Positions 4,597-17,527 of a stretch of 24,371 bases of DNA are shown piece after piece. Made by a program: the position numbers and the translations under genes. The stretch is taken from positions 1 to 24,371 of the IMG/VR virus record IMGVR_UViG_3300031963_000900; one strand, 5' to 3'. Source of the DNA: a virus. Numbering within the stretch: position 1 is the first letter of the stretch; the number at the start of each line of letters is the position of its first letter. The notes under the pieces were generated by a model. The model was not told the origin of the DNA. It made no database searches and worked only from the letters and a program-made list of their open reading frames with translations.

Positions 4597-4611
4597 GAAC
4601 AGGAGGCCGGC

Positions 4612-4830
4612 ATGAACGGATTGATTGACCTGAAACAGATCGCTCGGCTCACTGGAATGTCTTACACAACGATCCGAGTTTGGCGGAAGGCCGGCGTGCT
4701 GCCGCCTCCGATGATCGAGTTGTCGAACAACCGCAGATACTGGACGATCGAGCAGTTAGAAAAATGGCGGTGCCAGTTGTCGCCAGTTGTCGCCAGTCCG
4801 GTTGATTCGGACGAGAGTTCGAAACCCTGA
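4612..4830 (+). CDS. MerR/AlpA-like helix-turn-helix DNA-binding protein
   Basis: A 72-residue protein with an excellent AGGAGG site 8 bases before ATG. Residues 4-58 (LIDLKQIARLTGMSYTTIR, VWRKAGVLPPP, RYWTIEQLEKW) form a MerR-type winged helix-turn-helix of the excisionase/AlpA-like class. The long effector or coiled-coil half of true MerR proteins is missing. Such proteins serve as phage regulators or excisionases; which applies here cannot be told, because no integrase is in the window. Codons 54-63 are encoded by a 10-bp tandem repeat (about 2.6 copies of GCCAGTTGTC, 4772-4797). Confidence 0.75.
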   Translation: MNGLIDLKQIARLTGMSYTTIRVWRKAGVLPPPMIELSNNRRYWTIEQLEKWRCQLSPVVASPVDSDESSKP

Positions 4831-4854
4831 TGCGATAGCATGGCCGTGGATCCT

Positions 4855-4877
4855 GGAGCATGGACGCTCCTCTTTTC
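4855..4877 (+). terminator. Possible weak intrinsic terminator after the replication module
   Basis: GGAGC (4855-4859) and GCTCC (4866-4870) form a 5-bp GC-rich stem with a 6-base loop, followed by TCTTTTC. It sits 25 bases after the HTH gene and before the next ribosome binding site, where a module boundary is expected. The stem is short and the T-tract is interrupted, so this is tentative. Confidence 0.35.
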
Positions 4878-4897
4878 GTGTACTCACGGAGGTTGCC

Positions 4898-5092
4898 ATG
4901 CCGTCATTCGTTCAAGACCTAATCAAGTCACGTCGCTTCTGGGTCAGCGTAGGCGCAATCGCCGCGGTCGTTCTCAAGGACCGGCTGGGACTGCCTCTCT
5001 CGGAAGAGCAGATCACCGACCTGGCGATCCTGATCGGATCTTGGGTTGTCGGTGAATCGCTGCGGTCCAGTTCGGCAAAGGCATCGGTCTGA
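4898..5092 (+). CDS. Small membrane protein, candidate holin
   Basis: A 64-residue protein. The ATG at 4898 is chosen because GGAGG lies 8 bases upstream; a longer in-frame version from 4787 would overlap the HTH gene and add an uncharacteristic basic tail. It has two hydrophobic stretches, FWVSVGAIAAVVL (residues about 12-24) and ITDLAILIGSWVVG (about 37-50), separated by a charged turn with the pattern LGLPLSEEQ. Small two-helix phage proteins of this pattern, placed before lysis genes, are often annotated holin-like. It starts a run of membrane or exported genes ending in a protease. Holin function is inferred from size, topology and position. The next gene overlaps its stop (TGATG). Confidence 0.55.
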   Translation: MPSFVQDLIKSRRFWVSVGAIAAVVLKDRLGLPLSEEQITDLAILIGSWVVGESLRSSSAKASV

Positions 5093-5403: not shown

Positions 5404-5776
5404 GACTCAAAAAAGCTTGGTTCCCTGGCTGATCATTGCGGCGTTGGCGATCGCGCTTTGGCGTGCTAATTCGCCACTTCCGCCGGAGCCGGAACCAACG
5501 CCGTCTTCGGACATTCGACAAGTTGTCCAGAAGATGACCAAAGACACGCAAGCGGGTTACGCTCGCGAATTTCAACGTGCCGCTGCCGACGTTGGCAACG
5601 GGGCAATCAAAGACGAAGAAGCACTTTGGAAACAACTTAAGGAAGGGCTGGACAATGTACGTTCTGCGGCTAGCGATGATCTCAATCGTGCTCTTGATGC
5701 TAACATCCCAACAGAATGGAGCGACGGCAATGCCGTCAGCACCTTTCTCCGATCCGTCAGTGATGGATTCAAGTGA
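5393..5776 (+). CDS. Membrane-anchored periplasmic protein, possible inner-membrane spanin
   Basis: A 127-residue protein with GGAGG 10 bases before ATG and an 11-base overlap with the previous gene. Residues 9-24 (LVPWLIIAALAIALWR) form an N-terminal signal-anchor. A Pro-rich linker (SPLPPEPEPTPSSD) and an Ala/Lys/Glu-rich, probably helical domain follow. One membrane anchor plus a helical extracytoplasmic domain, with another exported protein encoded out of frame at its 3' end, is the layout of Rz-type inner-membrane spanins. No sequence family is recognised, so spanin function is only an inference from architecture and neighbourhood. Confidence 0.5.
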   Translation: MTTETQKSLVPWLIIAALAIALWRANSPLPPEPEPTPSSDIRQVVQKMTKDTQAGYAREFQRAAADVGNGAIKDEEALWKQLKEGLDNVRSAASDDLNRALDANIPTEWSDGNAVSTFLRSVSDGFK

Positions 5777-5927
5777 TTGTGCAAACGGTCAATGCCGCAT
5801 GCCAAAGGTTGCTGCGGTTGTTGAGCCAGTGGCAAAAGTCGCTGCTCTTCCTGTGACAAAAACGACCCAGTTTTTCAAACAGCGTCAGCCAGTGCGTTCG
5901 GCACTGCGGAGGCTGGTGGGTAGATGA
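5655..5927 (+). CDS. Secreted small protein overlapping the previous gene in another frame
   Basis: A 90-residue protein. The start at 5655 is preferred because GGAAGGG lies 7 bases upstream and it yields a clean Sec signal peptide (MYVLRLAMISIVLLMLTSQQNGATA, cleavage likely after residue 25 at ATA-MPS). An earlier in-frame start at 5577 would bury the signal. The mature part has a CANGQC motif (CxxGxC) and a basic C-terminus (VRSALRRLVGR). No lipobox cysteine is present. It overlaps the preceding gene by 122 bases in the +1 frame, as outer-membrane spanin genes often do. Similar CANGQC motifs are, from memory, frequent in small secreted planctomycete proteins. Function unknown. Confidence 0.55.
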   Translation: MYVLRLAMISIVLLMLTSQQNGATAMPSAPFSDPSVMDSSDCANGQCRMPKVAAVVEPVAKVAALPVTKTTQFFKQRQPVRSALRRLVGR

Positions 5928-6793
5928 GCGAGCTGGACCTGACGGAACCTGATTTGCCGGTTGGCGGTTATCGAATCGAGCTCGAAGACCGCGAAGGAAT
6001 CGCGGCTTCTTCGACCGATTGTTTGTTCGCGACGTTCGGCGACGTTCCCGTAAAGGTCGATCCTCGCAAGAGTCCGCTGGCGCAGAAGGGCTGGTTGCAG
6101 GTAGAAAATCAGCTACAGGTTGGATCGTGTCAGGGGCAAAGTCTAACCGAGTGCTCTGAGTTTTGTTGGGCAACGGCGACGGGCGGCAACGTGATCCAGT
6201 TGTCTCGCATGTACGCCTATCTTCGCTCGCAGCAGTTCGACAACATTCGCGGTGACTCTGGCAGCACTTTGTCAGGTGGCACGAAGACGGCCAAAGAAGG
6301 GATCTGCCTGGAAGCAATCGGCCCGTATACCTCTAGTTATCCTGGCTGGGGTTGGATCACTCCAGCGATGAGCGAGAACGCGAAGAACTACAAGCTCAAG
6401 ACGCACTCGGTGATCAGGTCGGCGGACGAGGTGCGACAGTATATCGGATCTGGTATTGGGATCGTCCAGATCGGGATTGCCTGGAATTCGACGATGACGC
6501 CTGACTCGCGAGGTTGTATTCGTCGGTGGTCTCCAGGCGGCGGCGGGCATGCGGTCGTCTTCTGCGGCTATCTACCTGATGCCGAAGTGGGTGCTCAAAG
6601 CTCGAAGGGCTGGTGGGCATTGCTCAAGAACAGTTGGGGTACACGCTGGGGCATTGGTGGCTATACCTATGTCGATCCCAGCGCGATCAACCAGATGCTG
6701 TCGCACTCATGGACGGTCATGATCGGGCGATCGGACATGGAGGTTCCAGGTCCGCGAAACATCGATTGGGTGAAGGAGAGCGTTTTCTCATGA
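5924..6793 (+). CDS. Papain-family (C1) cysteine protease
   Basis: A 289-residue protein with the full C1 peptidase signature: VENQLQVGSCQGQS, in which Q63 is the oxyanion glutamine and C69 the nucleophile with papain-like six-residue spacing; GGGGHAVVFCGY with catalytic H209; and LLKNSWGTRWGIGGY with N236. All four active-site residues are present, so it should be active. There is no signal peptide and only a short N-terminal extension (about 45 residues), which could act as a propeptide. It starts at an ATGA overlap with a secreted-protein gene and ends at an ATGA overlap with a membrane-protein gene. The setting suggests release into the envelope via a holin, and attack on host envelope protein is inferred. 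Alternatives are virion maturation or an injected virion protease. Confidence 0.88.
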   Translation: MSELDLTEPDLPVGGYRIELEDREGIAASSTDCLFATFGDVPVKVDPRKSPLAQKGWLQVENQLQVGSCQGQSLTECSEFCWATATGGNVIQLSRMYAYLRSQQFDNIRGDSGSTLSGGTKTAKEGICLEAIGPYTSSYPGWGWITPAMSENAKNYKLKTHSVIRSADEVRQYIGSGIGIVQIGIAWNSTMTPDSRGCIRRWSPGGGGHAVVFCGYLPDAEVGAQSSKGWWALLKNSWGTRWGIGGYTYVDPSAINQMLSHSWTVMIGRSDMEVPGPRNIDWVKESVFS

Positions 6794-7032
6794 CACAGGA
6801 TTCGCTCATCTACATCATCGGAACCGGCGTCTGCGGTGCACTCACGACAGCGGTGGTCTATTTGTTTCATCGATTCGAACAAGCCAAGAGTTTGCTTGTG
6901 AATCACTTTGAGGCTCAGCTTACTGTCGTTAATTCTCGGCTTCAAGATTGCGAAACGGATCGAGAGTCGCTTCGACAATCGATATTTGATCTACACCGCG
7001 AAATGATCGAACTGAAGCGGAGGATGGCGTAG
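6790..7032 (+). CDS. Small membrane-anchored coiled-coil protein
   Basis: An 80-residue protein. ATG 6790 overlaps the protease stop (ATGA), and AAGGAG lies 11 bases upstream. A longer in-frame start at 6613 lies inside the protease gene and is rejected. Residues 6-25 (LIYIIGTGVCGALTTAVVYL) form one membrane helix. Residues 28-79 are heptad-like and charged (LLVNHFEAQLTVVNSRLQ..., ending EMIELKRR), a likely coiled coil. This shape is seen in phage spanins and small lysis accessory proteins. It is the last gene before the tail-fibre block. No family recognised. Confidence 0.6.
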   Translation: MTQDSLIYIIGTGVCGALTTAVVYLFHRFEQAKSLLVNHFEAQLTVVNSRLQDCETDRESLRQSIFDLHREMIELKRRMA

Positions 7033-8525
7033 TGGGCGTATCTGCTCTGCTGTCTACTCAGATCCTCGATTCCTCGGCAACTGGTCGATCGGTTTTGACT
7101 GGTGCGGATGCCGCGGCGATACGCAGCGTTCTTGGTCTGGGATCGCTGGCGACGCAGAGCGGCACCATTGCCGACTACTTGACGATTGCGTCGGCGGCAT
7201 CGAGCTATCAACCGCTCGATAGCGATCTGACAGCGATCGCGGCATTGTTTACGACTTCATTCGGTCGAGGCTTGCTGACAGAGTCATCGAACAGCACGGC
7301 ACGAACCACGCTCGGGCTTGGGACGCTTGCCACCGTATCGCCAACAGGGACGCCTGACGGAACTAAGTTTCTGCGTGATGACGGGTCTTGGCAAGTACCT
7401 GCCGGAGGCGGTGGCGGGATCACCACGCTGAACACATTGACGGCGACGACGCAGACGTTTGCGACCGGGACAAGCGGAAGCGACTTCGGAATCAGTTCGA
7501 CGACCTCTACGCACACCTTCAATATGCCGGACGCTGGTGCGTCTGCTCGCGGGGTGGTGACGACTGGAACGCAGACGTTTGGCGGTGCTAAGACGTTCAA
7601 CTCGCTATTCACGAACGCACTCGGGACGATCACAGCTTCGACGCCTGCCACGTTTACGCAGACGTGGAACTCTGGAGGTGTGACGTTCAATTCGTTGCTC
7701 GTCAACGTGACTGACACCGCGTCAGCGACAGCAAGCACGCTGCAGGATTGGCAAGTCGGTGGAGCGAGCCGGGTCAGGATCACGAAGCAAGGAAGCATTG
7801 TTGTTAGTGACACTCCAGGCACTTCGGCAGGGTTTGCGAACACGGCTACATTCGGAGCGTCCGGAGTTAATCCTGTGTTCTATCGTGGCACCCAATTGGT
7901 CGCGATGTTCGATGCTGCGCTCACCATACTATCAACAGGCTACCTAGGAATCTCATCCGGCACGCCCACAGAAGGAAACGCGGACGTTCGGTTGTTTCGC
8001 GACGCGGCGGCAACGTTGGTGCAGAGAAACGCTCTCAACGCCCAGACGTTCGCCGTGTCCAATACCTACACGTCTTCGACCAGTTTCGAATATGGGCGGT
8101 TCTCATGGGTGTCGTCCGAGTTTCGCGTTGGAACGGCAGTCGGATCGGCAGGCGGTACGCAGCGAGTGACCTCGTTCGGGTTGTGGAACTCAGGTGGAAC
8201 GTGGACCGAAGCACTGAGAATCAACACAGCAGGAACCGTGACGATCGGAGCGTACACGTTACCAGCGGTTGACGGCACAAACGGCCAAGTGCTCAAGACA
8301 AACGGGTCTGGAGTTGTAACGTGGCAAGCCGACAGCACGGGCGGCGGCGGTGTAACCGACGGTCATAAAGGGGATATCACGGTTTCAGCGAGCGGTGCAA
8401 CGTGGACGATCGATAACTCTGCCGTAACGCTGGCTAAGACGACCGGAATCCAGAAGGTGATCACCTCGGGAACGGCGGCTCCGAGTGGTGGCACCGACGG
8501 CGACATTTACTTGCAATACACTTAG
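7032..8525 (+). CDS. Tail fibre protein
   Basis: A 497-residue protein from a GTG start that overlaps the preceding TAG (TAGTG junction). The composition is Ser/Thr/Gly/Ala rich. The N-terminal third holds tail-fibre repeats: LTGADAAAIRSVLGLGSLATQSGT (about 22-45), LDSDLTAIAALFTTSFGRGLL (about 63-83) and STARTTLGLGTLAT (about 88-101). Then comes DGTKFLRDDGSWQVPAGGGGG, a phrase common in phage fibres before a glycine linker. The middle and end are beta-rich (TQTFGGAKTFNS; TNGSGVVTWQAD). Such fibres trimerise and bind host surface receptors. The C-terminal half is not recognisable by eye, as expected for rapidly changing receptor-binding regions. Confidence 0.8.
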   Translation: MGVSALLSTQILDSSATGRSVLTGADAAAIRSVLGLGSLATQSGTIADYLTIASAASSYQPLDSDLTAIAALFTTSFGRGLLTESSNSTARTTLGLGTLATVSPTGTPDGTKFLRDDGSWQVPAGGGGGITTLNTLTATTQTFATGTSGSDFGISSTTSTHTFNMPDAGASARGVVTTGTQTFGGAKTFNSLFTNALGTITASTPATFTQTWNSGGVTFNSLLVNVTDTASATASTLQDWQVGGASRVRITKQGSIVVSDTPGTSAGFANTATFGASGVNPVFYRGTQLVAMFDAALTILSTGYLGISSGTPTEGNADVRLFRDAAATLVQRNALNAQTFAVSNTYTSSTSFEYGRFSWVSSEFRVGTAVGSAGGTQRVTSFGLWNSGGTWTEALRINTAGTVTIGAYTLPAVDGTNGQVLKTNGSGVVTWQADSTGGGGVTDGHKGDITVSASGATWTIDNSAVTLAKTTGIQKVITSGTAAPSGGTDGDIYLQYT

Positions 8526-9011: not shown

Positions 9012-10442
9012 ATGGCAACGACAAACGGAAACCGAAAGATTCTGGACCTTAAGCGGTGGGAGATGTGTGCCCCTGCTCCTGTTGCATCGGCGGCGGGTTC
9101 GTGCATCGCATCGAGTCGGCATTCCCGGCAGCAGCAATTGTATTTTCGGAGCAACACCGAAGCGTACATTTACAATCCGTCCGAGGACGGTTGGGTGCAA
9201 CTCGCGTCTCCGGTCATGGCAGGCACGTTTGGTGCGGGGGCGAGTGCTACCGCTGGGGCATGGTCAACTGGGTCAACGGTCGCCGCTGCCTCGCTGACCG
9301 CAACGGCTGGAACGACTTCGACCATCACGACCAACCAAACACTTTCCCGCGACCTTCGCGGCTACAAAATCTACATTCTGAGCGGTCCTAACAATGGCTC
9401 GGTGCTGGATATTGTGTCGAATCAAATCGGGTCCAATGCCGTTATTACGGTGGCGACCCAAGCCTCGGCATTTTCGGCCTCGACGGTGTACCGATTGCTG
9501 ACCCCTCGCTGGTATCTGCTGTCTGCAGGTACGCTCGCCTCGGGCAGTTTTCGCGTTTACGATTTCGCTACCAACACCTACCAAACGCTGGTCAACACGG
9601 GCCTCCCGGCGACCATCGGAACCGATGGCAAGCTGATTGCCACACCGTCGATTGTTGACGGGGCTTTCAAACAGTTCGCCACTGGCACGGCGACGAGTGC
9701 CACCTCGACGACGCTAGTGCAAACTGGCAAGACTTGGACGGCGAGTCAATGGATTAACTCGCAGGTCCGCATCACTGGCGGAACCGGGGCCGGTCAGATT
9801 CGGACTATCACGGCAAACACGACCGACACGCTGACCGTCGCAACGTGGACCACCACGCCAGACGCGACCTCGACCTATGCAATCGAAGGCAACGACGATT
9901 TTCTCTACTACATGGGAAACAATGCCGTTACACTGTACCGCTACAGCATCAGCGGCAACTCTTGGTCAACGCTAACGCCGGGGGCGGCTCGGGCAGCTGC
10001 ACCGTCAACCGGCATGTCAGCCCACTGGGTTCACTCGGCAACGGAAACCGACTGGACCAACGAATCGGCAATCCTTAACGGGCGGTACATCTACTCGTTC
10101 CAAGGTGGTGCAACTGCCAACCTTCACCGGTACGACATTGCCGGGAACACTTGGGCGACGATTACCTACGCGCCCAACACCGAGACGTTTACCACCGGAA
10201 CAAAATACGCCTTGCACAACGGGATTCTCTACATCCAAAAGGATGCGACTGGCCGCTGGTTTGCGTTTGACTTCTCGCGAAGCGAAATGTTTCCTTGGGG
10301 GACGATGCTTTACACGCAAGGTGCGGCGCTGGTTGGCGATACTGCCTTCGACGTGATTTACGAGGACGGAGCGACCGACATTTACTACGTCCACATGCTC
10401 CACAACACTTCGACGATCCAACTTCGCCAACAGGTGATCTAG
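9012..10442 (+). CDS. Kelch-like beta-propeller virion protein with inserted modules
   Basis: A 476-residue protein with GAGGAAA upstream of ATG. Kelch-type blades, in which Tyr-hydrophobic-Tyr/Phe is followed by a small-polar turn and Trp, occur at residues 43-64 (AYIYNPSEDGWVQL), 180-193 (RVYDFATNTYQTL), 298-321 (LYRYSISGNSWSTL), 357-384 (LHRYDIAGNTWATI) and 405-430 (WFAFDFSRSEMFPW). Two Thr/Ala-rich inserts interrupt the blades, at 74-163 and 221-292. The second contains GGTGAGQIRTITANTTDTL and TTPDATSTYAIEG, a phrase known from other phage surface proteins. There is no signal peptide. A receptor- or glycan-binding part of the tail is the likely role. Confidence 0.65.
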   Translation: MATTNGNRKILDLKRWEMCAPAPVASAAGSCIASSRHSRQQQLYFRSNTEAYIYNPSEDGWVQLASPVMAGTFGAGASATAGAWSTGSTVAAASLTATAGTTSTITTNQTLSRDLRGYKIYILSGPNNGSVLDIVSNQIGSNAVITVATQASAFSASTVYRLLTPRWYLLSAGTLASGSFRVYDFATNTYQTLVNTGLPATIGTDGKLIATPSIVDGAFKQFATGTATSATSTTLVQTGKTWTASQWINSQVRITGGTGAGQIRTITANTTDTLTVATWTTTPDATSTYAIEGNDDFLYYMGNNAVTLYRYSISGNSWSTLTPGAARAAAPSTGMSAHWVHSATETDWTNESAILNGRYIYSFQGGATANLHRYDIAGNTWATITYAPNTETFTTGTKYALHNGILYIQKDATGRWFAFDFSRSEMFPWGTMLYTQGAALVGDTAFDVIYEDGATDIYYVHMLHNTSTIQLRQQVI

Positions 10443-10443
10443 C

Positions 10444-10992
10444 ATGTTCCTGACGCTGCTTGCACCACAAAGCACACCAACACCAGCATCTACCAAAGCG
10501 TGGATCCGCGTTAGCAGCGTTTGGAAAGAGGCTACTCCGTTTGTGCGAGTTGCTGGAACGTGGAAGCAAGCAACGCCGTTCATTCGCGTGAGCGGGGTCT
10601 GGAAAACGCAACTGGACAAGACGCCAGCGGCGATTGATTGGAGCACAGTAACGTTCAACTCGACGGACGAGGAATGCATCGTTGTCGGTCGTCAGTTCAC
10701 TGGGATTGATCAGCAGATCAGCGTGCAGATCCAGCCGGGGACGGGGACAAACCCGACATTGCACTACCAGAAGACCTCAACAAGTCTGAACGGAAATACA
10801 GTGACCGCGTTTCCAACCAGTCCTTGGGTTGATGTGACGGCAAACACAACGATCACAATTGATGCGGGAGAATGGCTGAACTTTGCCTGCTCGGATTCGT
10901 TCCAAGCTACTTCGTCTCGCACGGCCACAATCGTCAACGTCTCAGACGGAAACGCAACTCTCGACACCTTTAATTATCGATCGGAACTCTAG
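10444..10992 (+). CDS. Tail fibre-like protein with W-x-RV-x-G-x-WK repeats
   Basis: A 182-residue protein starting one base after the previous stop. Residues 19-55 contain three copies of a 15-residue repeat with the pattern (A/P)-x-(I/V)-RV-(S/A)-(S/G)-x-WK-x-ATPF: AWIRVSSVWKEATPF, VRVAGTWKQATPF and IRVSGVWKTQ. This repeat type is common in phage tail and fibre proteins. The remainder is beta-rich (TVTFNSTDEECIVVGRQFTG; DVTANTTITIDAGEWLNFAC), possibly a jelly-roll or Ig-like fold. Role inferred: virion surface or fibre component, in series with the kelch-like protein. Confidence 0.6.
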   Translation: MFLTLLAPQSTPTPASTKAWIRVSSVWKEATPFVRVAGTWKQATPFIRVSGVWKTQLDKTPAAIDWSTVTFNSTDEECIVVGRQFTGIDQQISVQIQPGTGTNPTLHYQKTSTSLNGNTVTAFPTSPWVDVTANTTITIDAGEWLNFACSDSFQATSSRTATIVNVSDGNATLDTFNYRSEL

Positions 10993-10994
10993 CT

Positions 10995-11357
10995 ATGCCT
11001 CCTTACAACGAGCCGCAACCTGGTTTTGATGCCGTGCAACATGCTGCCAACAAGGTCGCGAGAGCGAACGACTTTCATGATTTGGTTGTCGCGACCTATC
11101 AGCAAACGTATCGCGACTTCTGGGGACTGAAGCAAGAGGGTGGAAGCGTCTACAGCACCGAGCAGATGCAAGCGGTCGTTGATGCGATGCCTCAATCGAC
11201 TGCGATCCAGATTTTGCAGCACGCGGGAGCGTTCGCGGCGTACATTTCGACTTCGTATCCCGGATCGCTCGGAGTTCAATTCCTCGACGCTGCGTTCGAT
11301 TACACGATTGACGAGAACGGACTGACTATTGGGAGCCTCAAGCAGGAATGGTCATGA
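10995..11357 (+). CDS. Hypothetical protein in the fibre block
   Basis: A 120-residue protein starting two bases after the previous stop, mostly helical by composition (QHAANKVARANDFHDLVVATYQQ; STAIQILQHAGAFAAYISTSYPG). It has no membrane helix, signal peptide or recognisable motif. Similar helical proteins sit beside tail-fibre genes in other phages as attachment or baseplate-associated proteins, but I cannot name a family. Its stop overlaps the start of the following cysteine-rich gene (ATGA), so the two are likely translationally coupled. Confidence 0.6.
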   Translation: MPPYNEPQPGFDAVQHAANKVARANDFHDLVVATYQQTYRDFWGLKQEGGSVYSTEQMQAVVDAMPQSTAIQILQHAGAFAAYISTSYPGSLGVQFLDAAFDYTIDENGLTIGSLKQEWS

Positions 11358-11497
11358 GATCGTGCTTTGTGTGTTTGGTTTTGGTTGTAGGTTGCAATGC
11401 GGATCCGTGTTGCAAACGTTGCAAGCCGCCATGCGAATGCAATGCGTGTGATGAATTCTGTGCTTGCCAAGAAATGGAGTCTGTAAGTGACGATTGA
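11354..11497 (+). CDS. Very small cysteine-rich putative lipoprotein
   Basis: A 47-codon frame begins at an ATGA overlap with the previous stop. Residues 1-14 (MRSCFVCLVLVVGC) form a short signal peptide ending in a lipobox (V-V-G-C, with C14 as acylation site). The mature part of about 34 residues holds nine cysteines including C14, with dense CC, CxxC and CxC patterns (DPCCKRCKPPCECNACDEFCAC), 11 cysteines in total. The tail is acidic. Coupling, a plausible lipobox and non-random composition argue that it is real, although it is too short for certainty. Possible roles are metal binding, superinfection exclusion at the envelope, or an outer-membrane spanin; all are speculative. The next gene starts 11 bases before its end. 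Confidence 0.5.
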   Translation: MRSCFVCLVLVVGCNADPCCKRCKPPCECNACDEFCACQEMESVSDD

Positions 11498-11639
11498 AAT
11501 CACTCAAGAAGAGCAGCAGCAACTGATTGCTTGCATCGAGATGGCAATCAAGCACGCACCAAACAGCTTGCAAGTGGCGGCACTGCTAATTCCGTTGGCA
11601 ACGAAATTGAGCGAGGCGAACAATGTCTCAAGTAGTTGA
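11487..11639 (+). CDS. Small helical phage protein
   Basis: A 50-codon frame from GTG with GGAG (11475-11478) about 8 bases upstream, overlapping the preceding gene by 11 bases and the following ATG by 17. The protein (MTIEITQEEQQQLIACIEMA..., ending NNVSSS) is one or two amphipathic helices with IKHAPNSLQVAALLIPLATKL. This resembles the short 'LIDLAVKxxGLxxAxxxxPLAxK' proteins found in phage genomes, a similarity recalled from memory. Function unknown. Confidence 0.5.
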   Translation: MTIEITQEEQQQLIACIEMAIKHAPNSLQVAALLIPLATKLSEANNVSSS

Positions 11640-12666
11640 GTTTTTTGCGGCTCCTGGGCAGACTGTAACCGCGCAGCTTTATTCGGCTGGCGACGATACG
11701 CTGGTATCGTCGCAGTCGGCAACCGAAGCTACGAACAGGAAGGGCGTTTACACGGCGACCTATACGGGCGTTGCAGCGGGAACGTATCGCGTCCTGGCGT
11801 TGGTTGGATCGACACCGATTGCAACTTGGTGGGTGGATTTGCTCACGGGATCTGCGACGTACATCGCTTACGAAATGCCGCTGGCCGTGCAGGTCGCAAG
11901 CGTCTACAACGCATCTCCGTCAGCCGGTTGGACGAATGGATCGTTTGGTGATCGTTTGCTCATTTCTGCTTCAGCACAAAGGACTGTCAGCGTCACAGGA
12001 TCAAACCATATTGCGTCTGCAGTGCATAGCATGGAGCCAGACGTAATGACCGCATCGGCTCTTGCGTCTGACGCAGTATTAGAGATTGCAACAGCGGTGG
12101 AGGCAACGCAGGCACTAAGTCGTCTAGATTCGATGATCGAGTCCGATGGTGCGGGGCAATTCCGGTTCGACACGATTGCACTATCGATGGCTCCAGCAGG
12201 TGGTGGCGGTGGTTCTGGCGATGCGAGCCAAGCGACACTTTTGCTCGTTAAGGCGAAGACGGATTTGATCACTGTCGGTCAGGTGCAATACACATCTCCA
12301 GTATCACCTATTGGGAACATTGCTACGCCGATACTCGCAGGCGACGACTACAAGGCCAGCATCGGAAACGCTTTTACTTGGACCATCAACGCTCGCACTG
12401 GTTACAGCGTATCGACCGCAACTTGTCGATTCGGCGGGTCTAGCGAAGACACCGGCGACGGTTGGAATGTGTCTGGTACGGTCAGCGATTTGGGTGGAGG
12501 TGAATGGCAACTGTCGTTCGACCTGCCGAAGGCGACGACATCGACGCTATCTCCTGGTTTTTATCGCTGGTCAGTTGAGCTCGTGAACCCTGGAGGCGAT
12601 GAAGTGACTGAGGTGTACAACAGCAACGCGAATAGGCAGGTTGAAGTGAGGGCAAAGCAGACATGA
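11623..12666 (+). CDS. Virion structural protein (fibre or baseplate type)
   Basis: A 347-residue protein. Residues 1-75 look like a beta-sandwich (FFAAPGQTVTAQLYSAGDDT, GVYTATYTGVAAGTYRVLAL), reminiscent of bacterial Ig-like or carrier domains. The centre contains SRLDSMIESDGAGQFRFDTIAL, a Gly-rich linker (PAGGGGGSGDASQ) and a helix, ATLLLVKAKTDLI. That helix matches the 'LLxIKAKTDLI' phrase frequent in phage tail-tip proteins. The C-terminal 100 residues (YKASIGNAFTWTI; GWNVSGTVSDLGGGEWQLSFDLP; SVELVNPGGDEV) are another beta domain like the receptor-side domains of phage baseplate proteins. Exact role unknown. It ends the fibre block. Confidence 0.6.
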   Translation: MSQVVEFFAAPGQTVTAQLYSAGDDTLVSSQSATEATNRKGVYTATYTGVAAGTYRVLALVGSTPIATWWVDLLTGSATYIAYEMPLAVQVASVYNASPSAGWTNGSFGDRLLISASAQRTVSVTGSNHIASAVHSMEPDVMTASALASDAVLEIATAVEATQALSRLDSMIESDGAGQFRFDTIALSMAPAGGGGGSGDASQATLLLVKAKTDLITVGQVQYTSPVSPIGNIATPILAGDDYKASIGNAFTWTINARTGYSVSTATCRFGGSSEDTGDGWNVSGTVSDLGGGEWQLSFDLPKATTSTLSPGFYRWSVELVNPGGDEVTEVYNSNANRQVEVRAKQT

Positions 12667-12778
12667 TCCCCCCCTACATGATGGGTCCTTATAGTATGCC
12701 AAAATGGCATCTTGCCGAATATCAGCCACGTTTTTTTCAAAAAAGTTAGTGCGTTAGAGGGTTAGGGAGGGGTGAGTT
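12667..12778 (+). other. AT-rich intergenic gap between fibre and packaging modules
   Basis: This is one of the longer gaps in the structural half. It contains a C7 run (12668-12674), a TATAGT box (12690-12695) that could serve as a -10 element, a 6-bp stem with 3-base loop (ATGCCA 12696-12701/TGGCAT 12705-12710), a T7-C-A6 stretch (12731-12744), and a purine run ending in GGGAGGGG before the TTG start. No clear -35 element or intrinsic terminator can be fixed. A promoter for the packaging and head genes is plausible by position. Confidence 0.35.
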
Positions 12779-13150
12779 TTGTTTGCACTTCAAACGGTCA
12801 GCGACGTGCGACTAGTGGGGAGAGCTTTGAAGGAAAAATGGAATGTCAACAGGACGAAAATAAAGTCCGCACTTATGAATGCTTTGGCCGATCCGGATCT
12901 TGCGATCGATGCCGCTAAGGTTTTGTTGTTGGCTGACGCTCTTGATGTGAAGCGAGAGGAACTCGAACAGAAAAAGGAAGTCAAAGAAAATGAGCAGCGA
13001 CTACGACTTCTTGAACTCGCTCGATCTGTCCCAGCTTCAGAACTTGCTCGTCTTGCATCCGAAAACGGCATCGGCGGCAGATCCGGTCAAGGGGGACGAG
13101 CGGCTAAAGCAACGCCAGTTAATGGCAAAAAAGCGAGCCGCAGAGCGTGA
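12779..13150 (+). CDS. Probable terminase small subunit
   Basis: A 123-residue protein from a TTG start with GGAGGGG about 5 bases upstream; no in-frame ATG occurs before residue 33, so TTG is favoured. Residues 8-34 (VRLVGRALKEKWNVNRTKIKSALMNAL) look like a DNA-binding helical segment. ADPDLAIDAAKVLLLADALDVKREELEQKKEVKENEQRLRLLEL is a long charged helix, a likely oligomerisation coiled coil. The C-terminus is basic and Gly-rich. A helical DNA-binding domain plus a central coiled coil, directly before the large terminase, is the usual small-subunit layout; family identity is not visible by eye. It overlaps the large-subunit gene by 161 bases. Confidence 0.6.
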   Translation: MFALQTVSDVRLVGRALKEKWNVNRTKIKSALMNALADPDLAIDAAKVLLLADALDVKREELEQKKEVKENEQRLRLLELARSVPASELARLASENGIGGRSGQGGRAAKATPVNGKKASRRA

Positions 13151-15197
13151 TCTTGCAATACCGATTCCGCTCGATATTACACGCCGAATCGATGCCGAGC
13201 GAGATCCGCAGCGATGGCTAAACGTCTACTTTGCAGAAATCTTTCGCGAAGCCTGGACCGACGACCGCCTAGCAATGCTTCACTCAATAATCGACGCCGC
13301 ACTCTACGGAGGCGACCAGGCAATAGCCGGTCCTCGCGGCGAAGGCAAGACGACGATCGCAACTCATGCGGCACTGTACTTGATGGTTCGCGGGCTCTCA
13401 ACCTTTCCTGTTGTGATCGGGAAGAGTCAAGGCAAGGCACAACTAGAACTCAAGTCGATCAAGGAGCAGCTCCAGCAGAATGAGCTATTCATTGCCGACT
13501 ATCCCGAAATCGGAGTGCCGATGCAAGCGGTTGGTGGCTGGTCGTCTCGTGCTCGCATGCAGACGGTCGGCGGCATGAACACCAATATCGAGCTAGCCGC
13601 CGATCACATCGCGTTCCCAACGATTGCACGCTTGCAGTTAGCGGACTGGCCAGAGTCGTTTGAGGTCGCAAGTTGCGGCCAGGTGCTCTACTGCCTTGGT
13701 ATTGACGGACCTGTTCGCGGTACGAAGTTTAGAAATCAGCGTCCAACGCTCGCAATTATCGACGACATCGAAGACCGTGAGGCGGCAGCGTCTGAAGCAT
13801 TGATTGAGAAGAACGAAGAGATCCTGGAAAAGGACGTTGCAGGACTCGGAGCCAGTAGTGAGCGGATTCCCAGAGTCATGCTCTGCACGGTGCAGAATCG
13901 CAAATGCATTGCCTATCGTTTCACCGATCCGCAGGTCAAGCCGTCTTGGCGAGGTAAGCGATACCGCAAGATGCTTCGCGAGCCTGATCGTATGGATCTC
14001 GTCCAGCAGTACATCCAGATGCGGCAGACTCGATCGACCGATGACCCGGACGCGCGGGTTGCGTTCCAGTTCTGGCGTGATAATCAGGTCGAGATTGAAG
14101 CGGGTTGCGTGGTTTCCAACGTCAATAGCTACTCAAAGAAGCTTCACGCAGACGGCGAGCCGCTGGAGTTGTCGGCAATTCACGCCTACTACAACCGAGT
14201 CGCAGACGTTGGACCAAAGGCTGTAGCGACCGAGATCGACAACGATCCTCCGCCAGAAGCGGGACCAGCTGGTCTTGGCATAACAACGGACATCATCATG
14301 TCGCGAATCAGCGGTCTGGATCGTCGGCAGTTGCCAGCCAACACCATCGCACTTACCGCAGGAATCGACGTCGGCAAGTATCGATGCCACTGGGTCGTTA
14401 CGGCATGGTGGAGCGGTGCCGGTGGATGCGTGGTTGATTATGGCGTTCTGGAGGTGTCAAACACCAATAGCGACATGGATCATGAAGCCGCGGAACCGCA
14501 GATCTATAAAGCACTCCTCGAATGGCGGGACTCGCAGAACGGCAAGCAATACGTTGACGCGACCGGAACCGAGCGAAAACTAGACTTCGTGCTTGTTGAC
14601 TCGGGAACCTTCACCCAGGCGATCTACGAGTTCACTAAGCAGGTTCGCGGCATTTATCATCCCGCCAAAGGCCAGTATCCTTACCGTCAACGCAAGCAGA
14701 ACACAGCTAATACGCTTGCCTCCGAGCATCTGCACGCGGAACGCATGGCATCGTCGGACGTTTGGCTCTACGAGCTCGACACATCCTACTGGAAACAGTT
14801 CGTTCATGAACGATTCTTGTCTCCGACCTTTGACGACCAGAACATGCTACGGCGTGGGGCATTGTCTCTTTTCAATCCGATGCACGGCAAAAGCCACTTG
14901 AACTACGCCATGCACTTGACCGCCGAAGAATTGGTCTCGGAGTTCAAAGAGGGCAAGGGCGTCAAAACATACTGGACCGTCAAGAACGAGAACAATCACT
15001 GGCTTGACGCGACCTACCTGTCGGCGGCGGCTGGCGAGATTTGCGGTGTCAAGCTGATCGCACCGAGCGAAAAGGAGATCGCACCTCGCATGGTGGACAA
15101 AGACGCACCCAAGCAACAGCCGCAACCACAACGAAGGAATCCGCACGGTCGATTTCGTCAACGGCCAGGCGGTTGGATACCACGGAGGAGAGGATAA
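12990..15197 (+). CDS. terL: Terminase large subunit (packaging ATPase and nuclease)
   Basis: A 735-residue motor protein that packages phage DNA into the prohead. The Walker A motif is GPRGEGKTT (114-122), Walker B with the catalytic acid is LAIIDDIE (254-261), and a probable coupling motif near 297-302 (VMLCTVQN) follows. The C-terminal RNase H-like nuclease begins at LTAGIDVGKYRCHWVV (D460), with a second acid at DFVLVDSG (D537) and a third region near 680-690 (HWLDATYLSAAA, with D). The length exceeds the common 450-600 residues, because of an N-terminal 90-residue extension and large inserts. AGGAAG lies 9 bases before ATG 12990. An internal ATG at 13122 lacks a site and is disfavoured. 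The gene overlaps the small-subunit gene by 161 bases. Confidence 0.9.
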   Translation: MSSDYDFLNSLDLSQLQNLLVLHPKTASAADPVKGDERLKQRQLMAKKRAAERDLAIPIPLDITRRIDAERDPQRWLNVYFAEIFREAWTDDRLAMLHSIIDAALYGGDQAIAGPRGEGKTTIATHAALYLMVRGLSTFPVVIGKSQGKAQLELKSIKEQLQQNELFIADYPEIGVPMQAVGGWSSRARMQTVGGMNTNIELAADHIAFPTIARLQLADWPESFEVASCGQVLYCLGIDGPVRGTKFRNQRPTLAIIDDIEDREAAASEALIEKNEEILEKDVAGLGASSERIPRVMLCTVQNRKCIAYRFTDPQVKPSWRGKRYRKMLREPDRMDLVQQYIQMRQTRSTDDPDARVAFQFWRDNQVEIEAGCVVSNVNSYSKKLHADGEPLELSAIHAYYNRVADVGPKAVATEIDNDPPPEAGPAGLGITTDIIMSRISGLDRRQLPANTIALTAGIDVGKYRCHWVVTAWWSGAGGCVVDYGVLEVSNTNSDMDHEAAEPQIYKALLEWRDSQNGKQYVDATGTERKLDFVLVDSGTFTQAIYEFTKQVRGIYHPAKGQYPYRQRKQNTANTLASEHLHAERMASSDVWLYELDTSYWKQFVHERFLSPTFDDQNMLRRGALSLFNPMHGKSHLNYAMHLTAEELVSEFKEGKGVKTYWTVKNENNHWLDATYLSAAAGEICGVKLIAPSEKEIAPRMVDKDAPKQQPQPQRRNPHGRFRQRPGGWIPRRRG

Positions 15198-15427
15198 TGG
15201 CAAAGAAACGGAAGCAACAACCAGTGCAAGAAGTTCAAGAGACACAAGTAATCGAAGCGGTTATTGAGGAATCGAAGCCGCGTGAGTTCGAAGCACGTCC
15301 ATGCTCATCTTGTGCAAGCGTCCGACCATACGGCAAGAACTATAGCCGAGTCTATTGCACGCGAGCTTCGATTCGATATTGCAAATGCGACTTTTGCGGA
15401 AACACATGGTCGCAAGAAGGAAAGTAA
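15197..15427 (+). CDS. Small zinc-ribbon protein between terminase and connector genes
   Basis: A 76-residue protein whose ATG overlaps the terminase stop (TAATG), with a strong GGAGGAGAGGA purine tract just upstream. The N-terminal 35 residues are Lys/Gln/Glu rich and probably disordered. The C-terminal part has CSSC (residues about 37-40) and CKCDFCGNTW (about 63-72), a four-cysteine zinc ribbon similar to those in small phage proteins encoded near terminases. Role unknown; DNA or RNA binding during packaging is a guess. Confidence 0.65.
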   Translation: MAKKRKQQPVQEVQETQVIEAVIEESKPREFEARPCSSCASVRPYGKNYSRVYCTRASIRYCKCDFCGNTWSQEGK

Positions 15428-15439
15428 ATTTTCGCCCTC

Positions 15440-15459
15440 TGTACTATTCCAATAGTACA
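15440..15459 (+). promoter_or_regulatory. 20-bp palindrome, candidate operator
   Basis: TGTACTATT (15440-15448) and AATAGTACA (15451-15459) are perfect 9-bp half-sites separated by CC. It lies in a 73-base gap between the zinc-ribbon gene and the gpW-type gene, 41 bases before the ATG. No T-run follows. The symmetry and spacing fit a dimeric repressor site better than an RNA terminator. The binding protein is unknown. Confidence 0.5.
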
Positions 15460-15500
15460 AACATCTAGCAACCAAAACATGCCATGCGAAACTTGCTTGC

Positions 15501-15716
15501 ATGGCAACATCTGCAAGCCTGCTCTCACAAATTGACGCAGCTATCGAGGCACTGCTTACCGGCGGTGCGTCTTCGTATTCGATTGGAAATCGATCGGTTA
15601 CGAAGCTTGACTTGCCGGCCTTAATGAGCGAACGCCGGATGTTGCTAACTGAAGTGCAACGCGAAACCGGATCAGGCGGAATCGCCCTCGGCAAGATGAC
15701 GAGGCACCGCCGATGA
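15501..15716 (+). CDS. gpW-type head-tail joining protein
   Basis: A 71-residue protein with the features of the lambda gpW family: two helices (SLLSQIDAAIEALLTGG; DLPALMSERRMLLTEVQRE) around a short beta hairpin (SYSIGNRSVTKLD). The family stabilises filled heads and lets the tail attach. The size matches the usual 65-75 residues, and the position between terminase and portal is the same as in lambda. Its stop overlaps the portal start (ATGA). No strong ribosome binding site is visible before this ATG, which is unusual for this window. Confidence 0.75.
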   Translation: MATSASLLSQIDAAIEALLTGGASSYSIGNRSVTKLDLPALMSERRMLLTEVQRETGSGGIALGKMTRHRR

Positions 15717-17527
15717 TCGACCGCATCTTCGATTCCTTGGTCTCTGCCATTTCTCCTGTCTCTGGTTTGCGACGCATGCAAGCCAGACGCCTGCTTCGCT
15801 CCTACCAAGGCGGCGAACCCTCCCGCGTTAGCAGTTCGCGGAATCCTAAGAACCAACCCGCGGACATGGAATTGCTCGGCCCGTTTGGTGCCGATCGAAC
15901 CAGAGCATGGGCCAGGGATCTTGTTCGCAACAACGCCTACGCTTGGGGCGTCGTCGATACGATCGTTTCCAGCGTGGTAGGTTGCGGGATTCGAGCACAA
16001 TCCACCTTCGAAACTCCGGAAGGCGAAGACGTCGAAAACGTCAACGATGTACGCGACAAGGTTTGGTCCGAGTGGTGCGAAGTCTGCGACGTCAACGGCC
16101 AATACACCTTCGAGGAATTGCAGGCCGCTGCACAGCGTGAGATTGTCGAGGCCGGGGAAGTGCTGGTCCGCATTGTCCGCACCTCAAGCATTACCTATCG
16201 CGGCATCCTGCGACCTGTGCCGCTCGCACTTGAATTGATCGAAGCTGACCGTCTCGCAGGCGACAAGGACACCTACGCCGCTCGGCTGTCGGCACAAAAC
16301 GGCAACCGCATCATCCGTGGCGTCGAGGTGGACGACCTTGGCAAGCCTGTCGCGTACTGGATCTACAAAGACCACCCGCTCCAGCCGTACGCATTCACTC
16401 GCACACCGGAGCGGATACCGGCCAACGAGATCATGCACCTATTCCGGCGTGATCGAGTCGGCCAGACTCGCGGCGTGACTTGGTTTGCTCCGGCACTTAG
16501 CTGGATTCGGGATCTCGGAACCTACGTTGACAACGAGCTGCAAGCCTCGGCGGTCGCGTCCTGCTTCACGGTGGCGATCAAGACCGATACGCCGATCGGC
16601 AACCTCTACGATCCAGACGGCGGCAGCGGCACAGACTCAGCAGGCAATCGAGAGCGGTACGTTGAGCCTGGCATGATTATGGAACTCAAGCCTGGCGAAG
16701 ACGTCGTTGGCCTCAATCCAGGCCGTCCAAACGCCGGTGCCGAGCCGTGGATTCAACTCATCCTCCGTGGGATCGCGGTCGGCACCGGCCTCTCCTACGA
16801 AGTTGTCGCACGCGACTACAGCCAGACATCGTATAGCTCCAGCCGCACCAGCCAACTCGAAGACCGACGCCGCTTTCGATGCTGGCAGCAATACCTGATT
16901 CGGCACCTCTGCCAACCAGTCTGGGACGCGTTTTGTGATGCGGCGGCGTTGTCTGCGTTGCCAGGGTTCGCGGCATCGTCCGATCTGCTTGACGATCGAC
17001 GCCGCGTCGCTCCGGTCGAGTGGCAAACTCCGGAGTGGGAGTGGGTCGATCCACAGAGCGAACAGACCGCTAGCGAGATGGCGTTGAACTCGTTCACCGA
17101 CACGTACCAAAACGTCCTCGGATCGCGTGGCCGATCGTTCCGCAGCGTCTTCTATCAGCGAGCAAAAGAAGAGCGGATGCGGCGGAAGCTGGGCCTAGTC
17201 ACTGCCGAAGAGCAGCAACTAGCGATCAGTGCCGCACAGACACAACAGACGGCGGCAAGCGATCCGCAGGGATCTGCACCATCCGCACCTGTCGAGCAAC
17301 GAACCTCTGGCACCGGCGAAATGGTGGGTTTGTCAACCCTCCAGTTCAACCGCAACCGCAAAGCCATCTTCAAGACCCTGGAAGAGCTTGCTGCAGGCAC
17401 TCTCTCAGAGACTCAGGCTCGCGTCTTCCTATCGTCGATCGGCATGAGTCCCGACAACGTCGATGCGTTGGTCACTGACGCTATGGATGGATCCGTGGAC
17501 ACCGTAGAACCGGAGGCCGCAACGTGA
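15713..17527 (+). CDS. Portal protein, lambda type
   Basis: A 604-residue protein starting at an ATGA overlap. It resembles the lambda gpB portal family: YQGGEPSRVSSSRNPKNQPAD near the N-terminus (residues about 31-51), RDLVRNNAYAWGVVDTIVSSVVGCGIR (about 68-94), and WSEWCEVCDVNGQYTFEELQ (about 113-132). ANEIMHLFRRDRVGQTRGVTWFAP (about 236-259) and VARDYSQTSYSSSRTSQLEDRRRF (about 360-384) are family hallmarks. The portal is the dodecameric ring at one head vertex through which DNA enters and leaves. The C-terminal 120 residues are longer and less conserved, ending in a helical region (LEELAAGTLSETQARVFL). Confidence 0.9.
   Translation: MIDRIFDSLVSAISPVSGLRRMQARRLLRSYQGGEPSRVSSSRNPKNQPADMELLGPFGADRTRAWARDLVRNNAYAWGVVDTIVSSVVGCGIRAQSTFETPEGEDVENVNDVRDKVWSEWCEVCDVNGQYTFEELQAAAQREIVEAGEVLVRIVRTSSITYRGILRPVPLALELIEADRLAGDKDTYAARLSAQNGNRIIRGVEVDDLGKPVAYWIYKDHPLQPYAFTRTPERIPANEIMHLFRRDRVGQTRGVTWFAPALSWIRDLGTYVDNELQASAVASCFTVAIKTDTPIGNLYDPDGGSGTDSAGNRERYVEPGMIMELKPGEDVVGLNPGRPNAGAEPWIQLILRGIAVGTGLSYEVVARDYSQTSYSSSRTSQLEDRRRFRCWQQYLIRHLCQPVWDAFCDAAALSALPGFAASSDLLDDRRRVAPVEWQTPEWEWVDPQSEQTASEMALNSFTDTYQNVLGSRGRSFRSVFYQRAKEERMRRKLGLVTAEEQQLAISAAQTQQTAASDPQGSAPSAPVEQRTSGTGEMVGLSTLQFNRNRKAIFKTLEELAAGTLSETQARVFLSSIGMSPDNVDALVTDAMDGSVDTVEPEAAT

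Follow-up and report, generated by a model that had tools for sequence, protein, structure and literature searches.

A rare cysteine-rich lipoprotein gene of uncultured phages, possibly acting at the envelope of the infected cell

Identification of the lipoprotein gene

A short open reading frame in a 24,371-base IMG/VR virus record (this whole stretch of DNA is hereinafter referred to as the window) was found to be a genuine, selectively maintained but rare phage gene, and its product, a predicted cysteine-rich lipoprotein, most likely modifies the infected cell's envelope, perhaps keeping rival phages out. Its translation, MRSCFVCLVLVVGCNADPCCKRCKPPCECNACDEFCACQEMESVSDD, comprises 47 residues with 11 Cys, as the original prediction had stated. 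Cysteine makes up about one-quarter of the residues, and proline is restricted to one pair and one single residue. The following features were assigned to the gene.

11344-11347, + strand: AGGA, Shine-Dalgarno-like, 6 nt 5' of the ATG at 11354 (read from the sequence)
11354-11497, + strand: Cys-rich lipoprotein gene, 47 aa (from the ORF, relatives, purifying selection, and shuffles)
11354-11392, + strand: predicted lipoprotein signal peptide, 13 aa (from the motif; sequence varies between relatives)
11384-11395, + strand: lipobox VVGC, with the predicted acylated Cys14 at 11393-11395
11408-11467, + strand: Cys core, codons 19-38, 8 Cys, CC-x2-C-x3-C-x-C-x2-C-x3-C-x-C
11420-11440, + strand: first C-x3-C-x-C unit, CKPPCEC (from the sequence)
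11447-11467, + strand: second C-x3-C-x-C unit, CDEFCAC (from the sequence)

The predicted mature part consists of 34 residues with nine Cys including that of the lipobox (mature positions 1, 6, 7, 10, 14, 16, 19, 23, and 25), in agreement with the earlier description of a short signal ending in VVGC and nine Cys in a mature part of about 34 residues. The ATG overlaps the TGA of the preceding 120-aa gene (10995-11357) as ATGA, which corresponds to the coupled start that had been proposed. An in-frame ATG at 11348 was disfavored as the start, because AGGA lies 6 nt before the ATG at 11354. G/A-rich Shine-Dalgarno-like stretches were also present 5' of the starts in two relatives (L003 and L004, see below). 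An AlphaFold model of the lipoprotein was too poor for use (pLDDT 61, pTM 0.26).

The window was scanned for frames combining a start, K/R, a charge-free stretch, a lipobox, and a minimum number of Cys (at least 5 to at least 9) in 34 residues. Exactly one frame passed at every Cys threshold from 5 to 9. Across 200 dinucleotide shuffles, a mean of 0.085 frames passed at ≥5 Cys, and at ≥6 Cys none of the 200 yielded a start-plus-lipobox frame, which upholds the claim that such a frame is not expected from random sequence.

Relatives and purifying selection

A scan of 2.9 million viral contigs (IMG/VR) matched 11 stretches, of which five encode a relative, and the frame was intact in all five. 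An alignment-based scan of the viral contigs and a scan with the L003 protein revealed no contigs beyond those already known. Several of the locus handles used here denote the same contig (L002, L007, L092, L297, and L380; L004, L009, L294, L295, L300, and L382; L003, L008, L296, L303, and L381). L004, L005, and L006 are identical in protein sequence; at the contig level, the 100% identity spans 19 kb for two of them and 10.6 kb for the third. There are thus four distinct proteins including that of the window (window, L002, L003, and L004).

Identity to the window protein was 86% for L002 and approximately 60% over the shared part for L003 and L004. The L003 and L004 proteins are extended by a longer tail that includes a further Cys unit, CHESCIC, which gives them three C-x3-C-x-C units where the window protein contains two; the L003 form is 83 aa long. 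The signal peptides (MRSCFVCLVLVVG, MRACFMCLILVAG, MVCRLLFVGLFLLAG, and MKIAKWAGLLCLLAILG) are unlike one another, yet all end at a lipobox, with VAGC, LAGC, and ILGC in the relatives in place of VVGC. Despite these differing signal peptides, the G-C of the lipobox and eight or seven core Cys are kept in all four distinct sequences; the invariant columns include G15, C16, C22, C25, C29, C31, C34, C38, and C40 (49-residue numbering). One core Cys of the window protein, C19, is replaced by Phe in L002. Besides the acylated Cys, the window, L002, L003, and L004 proteins contain 8, 7, 11, and 11 Cys, and their His counts are 0, 1, 4, and 4, respectively. His stands next to Cys in L002, L003, and L004, and three of the four His in the latter two are so placed.

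Substitutions were counted over 27 codons starting at the lipobox Gly. Between the window and L003, 14.8 synonymous sites carried 13 changes and 66.2 nonsynonymous sites carried 7 (Fisher 1.8e-8); the window and L004 differed by 13.5 synonymous and 6.5 nonsynonymous changes (Fisher 2.9e-10). Because synonymous sites are saturated in these wider pairs, a dN/dS ratio is not quoted for them. L003 and L004 differed by 6 synonymous and 3 nonsynonymous changes (dN/dS 0.085; Fisher 9.3e-4). Substitution patterns across the divergent pairs thus indicate that the Cys core is under purifying selection.

That the frame might be spurious is very improbable. The closest pair (window and L002), taken alone over the whole ORF, gave no signal of purifying selection, with 7 nonsynonymous versus 2 synonymous changes, unlike the neighboring genes in the same pair, where synonymous changes dominate. 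However, codons 1-19 hold six of these seven nonsynonymous changes and codon 39 the seventh, and codons 20-38 carry a single change, which is synonymous; the changes therefore cluster outside codons 20-38, as if the Cys core were held while the signal and linker drift. The strong purifying selection in the divergent pairs, the frame open in five of five relatives, and the outcome of the shuffles also speak against a chance frame. A frame disrupted in close relatives or lacking purifying selection would have counted against the original observation; since the frame is open and the divergent pairs are under selection, the observation holds.

Searches for known families

The gene had been described as undescribed, and no match was found in the libraries or literature searches used. 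No match was obtained by tblastn with the 47-aa protein and the 83-aa L003 form against annotated phages, or with the L003 form against plasmids. At E≤10, every match of the lipoprotein family in Pfam, NCBIfam, or PHROGs was insignificant (influenza C CM2, 0.25 and 1.2; TraV, 2 and 9.7; phrog_20640, 1.1), and the only PDB sequence matches were to NKG2-D (E 0.39-6.4, insignificant). A genome-contig scan with the family alignment returned 62 stretches that fit a pattern and no relatives. A DNA pattern of the Cys spacing matched at least 119 stretches in viral contigs; among the matches listed, none looked like a further member, and these were mostly low-complexity or antisense Cys-rich frames. 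Literature searches for cysteine-rich phage lipoproteins or lipoprotein metallothioneins, at the level of listings, turned up nothing relevant. The lipoprotein family thus appears to be previously unannotated; its product would behave as a small accessory phage lipoprotein, any tie to a named exclusion family being tentative.

Gene contexts and accessory distribution

The lipoprotein gene occurred in three gene contexts, all in the fiber/packaging region, and in the window it is followed by genes for a gpA-like terminase, a lambda-type portal, and capsid. The neighboring genes of the window were as follows.

7032-8525: ORF with a weak head-fiber match
9012-10442, + strand: kelch/beta-propeller-type fiber-region protein (Pfam Kelch_4, 28.1 bits, cut-off 21.6)
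10444-10992, + strand: 182-aa protein, weak 37-residue match to the minor tail protein family phrog_6977 (E=1.8e-5)
10995-11357, + strand: 120-aa gene without a family match, overlapping the lipoprotein start as ATGA
11487-11639, + strand: 50-aa gene with a GTG start, overlapping the lipoprotein stop by 11 nt
12990-15197, + strand: terminase large subunit, gpA-like (family matches)

Family searches assigned no function to the 120-aa and 50-aa neighbors, and no relative of the 120-aa gene was found besides that of the L002 contig. In the first context (window and L002), the lipoprotein gene follows this 120-aa gene. In the second (L003), it follows a short ORF and a kelch gene 76.7% identical to that of the window, and in the third (L004), a terminase-small-subunit-like gene (phrog_4044, E=6e-6). 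The start overlaps the preceding stop in all three contexts, as ATGA in the window and TGATG in L003 and L004. L003 and L004 share 667 bases at 86%, and since this stretch begins inside the lipoprotein gene, a recombination edge lies in the 5' part of the gene.

The gene is accessory (a "moron" of a tailed phage) and absent from most related phages. Its core motif was present in none of 80 portal-related loci, one of 76 kelch-related loci, and, for the 137-aa gene next to it on the 3' side in L003 and L004, four of 80 loci (two distinct phages); absence means that no frame of these loci, many of them fragments, contained the octapeptide RCKPPCEC. At nearly all other 137-aa loci, the position of the lipoprotein gene is taken by the end of a different ORF, the upstream DNA of L345 being too short to show an upstream ORF. 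A looser lipobox-plus-Cys scan of 168 records (L001-L167 and the window) gave 23 rows. Twelve belonged to the Cys-rich lipoprotein family (the window and repeat copies of contigs); the other 11, judged by eye, were antisense or non-coding-looking frames and one unrelated lipoprotein-like ORF (L167). A lipobox search 3' of the kelch gene at 64 loci (63 of the 76 kelch loci and L008) gave four rows, two of them from the family.

A ConA-like lectin gene is located two genes 3' of the lipoprotein gene in L009 and L008. This lectin gene lies 3' of the 137-aa gene; its two ends are conserved and its middle part is hypervariable. Pfam Laminin_G_3 matched two of the seven members tested. A model of the lectin of the L004 phage was confident (pLDDT 87, pTM 0.86) and matched models of ConA-like phage lectins as well as a cyanophage tailspike. 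Its PDB fold matches (the lectin part of trans-sialidase and neurotoxin binding domains) reflect the shared ConA-like jelly-roll fold, and nothing suggests a toxin. Through this nearby lectin gene, the lipoprotein is tied to an adhesin region in the L003/L004-type phages. The link is looser in the window, where the kelch protein lies three genes 5' and the other matches are weakly tail-like. The location among fiber genes proposed originally was supported by the kelch protein, by weak tail and head-fiber matches (10444-10992 and 7032-8525), and by the lectin in the L009 context.

Other features of the phage contigs

Lectin genes of this type (approximately 240-280 aa, with conserved ends) were swapped widely among the L300-L379 contigs. 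The window and contig IMGVR_UViG_3300027816_002719 (L007) were nearly identical over approximately 11 kb, with 188 differences in all and divergence in three sharply bounded patches (4600-5000, 5600-6200, and 10600-12400), explicable either by a recent mosaic exchange or by strains mixed during assembly.

A papain-family (C1) cysteine protease was encoded at 5924-6793 in the window and at 8909-9745 in L294 (Pfam 41.6 and 21.4 bits), set in both phage types amid small membrane-protein-like ORFs (membrane segments judged by eye). It had no match in the annotated phage collection and is a possible unusual lysis enzyme. Next to it, L294 encodes a membrane-anchored protein with a CEPC motif (9742-10212) and weak thioredoxin-domain and holin matches (phrog_22, E=0.025; phrog_2877, E=0.0031). 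A second phage lipoprotein, with lipobox VSC and a DnaJ-like CxxCxGxG pair, was found at 6194-6604 of L294 (PF00684, E=0.0013, below cut-off). Further, L295 contains one 2351-residue frame (9752-16807) with Mu-type portal, methyltransferase, and SNF2-like helicase matches, an unusual portal fusion. A host search via the portal yielded only a 15-kb contig in an "uncultured Microbacteriaceae" MAG (one of 297 genomes of the order, E≤1e-60), which is probably a binned phage contig and was not taken as evidence of the host.

Possible function of the lipoprotein

We tentatively propose, as the likeliest among several readings, that the product is an envelope-anchored moron excluding superinfecting phage like Llp, Cor, and Rtp45. 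The short signal peptide would direct its export, and after cleavage at the lipobox Cys14 would tether it to the infected cell's envelope. The mature part may form a tiny, rigid knob in which bound metal and/or disulfides hold the repeated C-x3-C-x-C units together. This knob would act at the cell surface during infection by binding and disabling an envelope component that the phage uses, so that superinfecting phages would be excluded. Export, lipidation, metal or disulfide bonding, and the exclusion role are all inferred here.

Small phage lipoproteins by receptor-binding genes are known exclusion factors (PMC9586334, PMC12685063, PMC13164509). The Llp gene lies adjacent to, and downstream of, the receptor-binding gene (PMC9586334), the Cor locus lies just downstream of tail-fiber genes, and relatives that use another receptor lack it (PMC13164509), and Rtp45, the LptDE-binding exclusion lipoprotein of phage Rtp, is approximately 6 kDa with a Cys30-Cys38 disulfide (PMC12685063). 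Like T5 Llp and T1-phi80-N15 Cor as described there, the present product is a very small phage protein with a signal peptide and lipobox (by motif) and is patchy among relatives. Its gene may likewise belong to an adhesin region: it lies two genes before the lectin gene in L009 and L008, and in the window it has the 120-aa gene and the kelch and tail-like genes on its 5' side. Its size, lipobox, location, and patchiness fit the layout of known exclusion lipoproteins. It differs from Llp and Cor in having far more Cys and no sequence similarity that we found, and from Rtp45, to which homology was not detectable, in having 7-11 core Cys as against the one internal disulfide reported for Rtp45. 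No similarity to known exclusion proteins was found in PDB sequences (E up to 10), Pfam, NCBIfam, or PHROGs. The Cys core is near-invariant across different downstream genes, which argues against exclusion, as a receptor-matched factor might vary. Of the three roles originally suggested (exclusion, metal binding, and a spanin-like role), exclusion would fit best with a patchy accessory gene near adhesins.

The main rival is a lipid-anchored metallothionein-like protein in which the C-x3-C-x-C units would bind a membrane-located cluster of zinc, copper, or cadmium and so buffer metal or protect the envelope or virion assembly. Metal binding, as originally suggested, is plausible, although we consider it less likely than exclusion. 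The number of Cys besides the acylated one is odd in three of the four sequences (7, 11, and 11), so not all can pair in intramolecular disulfides, and the His beside Cys in L002, L003, and L004 likewise disfavors all-disulfide bonding. Metallothioneins have C-x-C motifs and few aromatics, and the C-x-C motifs and almost aromatic-free core resemble them; bacterial forms (SmtA/BmtA, Pfam Metallothio_Pro) are also short and Cys-dense, though not known to carry a lipid anchor. The second lipoprotein of the L009 phage, with its weak DnaJ-like pair below cut-off, points in the same direction. However, the four proteins gave no Pfam metallothionein match at E≤10, no metal-related genes were noticed beside the lipoprotein gene, and the lipobox is conserved here, whereas metallothioneins are described as cytosolic (PMC8790569).

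The exclusion and metal-binding readings do not conflict, because exclusion could be carried out by a metal-held knob. A combined form, in which a virus-encoded, lipid-anchored metallothionein-like cluster on the infected-cell envelope would exclude rivals or buffer metal, with a unit number that varies between phages, is less probable still; no envelope-tethered metallothionein of this kind turned up in the literature searches.

Slightly lower again we place a disulfide-rich structural peptide of the envelope or virion, such as an adhesin-associated lipoprotein, that is not an exclusion factor. The dense Cys of a predicted exported protein and the fiber/packaging location would suit it, but the odd Cys number in three of four sequences and the absence from most relatives sharing structural genes do not, and the accessory distribution counts against a virion-essential or lysis role.

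An outer-membrane spanin subunit for lysis, part of the original prediction, is highly unlikely: the product is short and lipobox-bearing like Rz1-type o-spanins, and an 80-aa transmembrane coiled-coil protein (6790-7032; weak Rz-like match to phrog_739, E=0.14) lies beside the papain-type protease, but this only i-spanin-like candidate is approximately 4.3 kb away with no transmembrane coiled-coil gene adjacent, the gene is missing from most related phages, and the product has few prolines while Rz1-type proteins are proline-rich.

Implications

Most small phage lipoproteins known to remodel the infected cell's envelope come from coliphages, and the present gene adds a verified family from uncultured phages whose Cys-repeat module is unusual. 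If the product excludes superinfecting phages, it would represent a new scaffold for this function; should it bind metal, it would be a viral metallothionein-like protein with a lipid anchor. The family also indicates that conservation by itself suffices to find very short morons next to adhesin genes.
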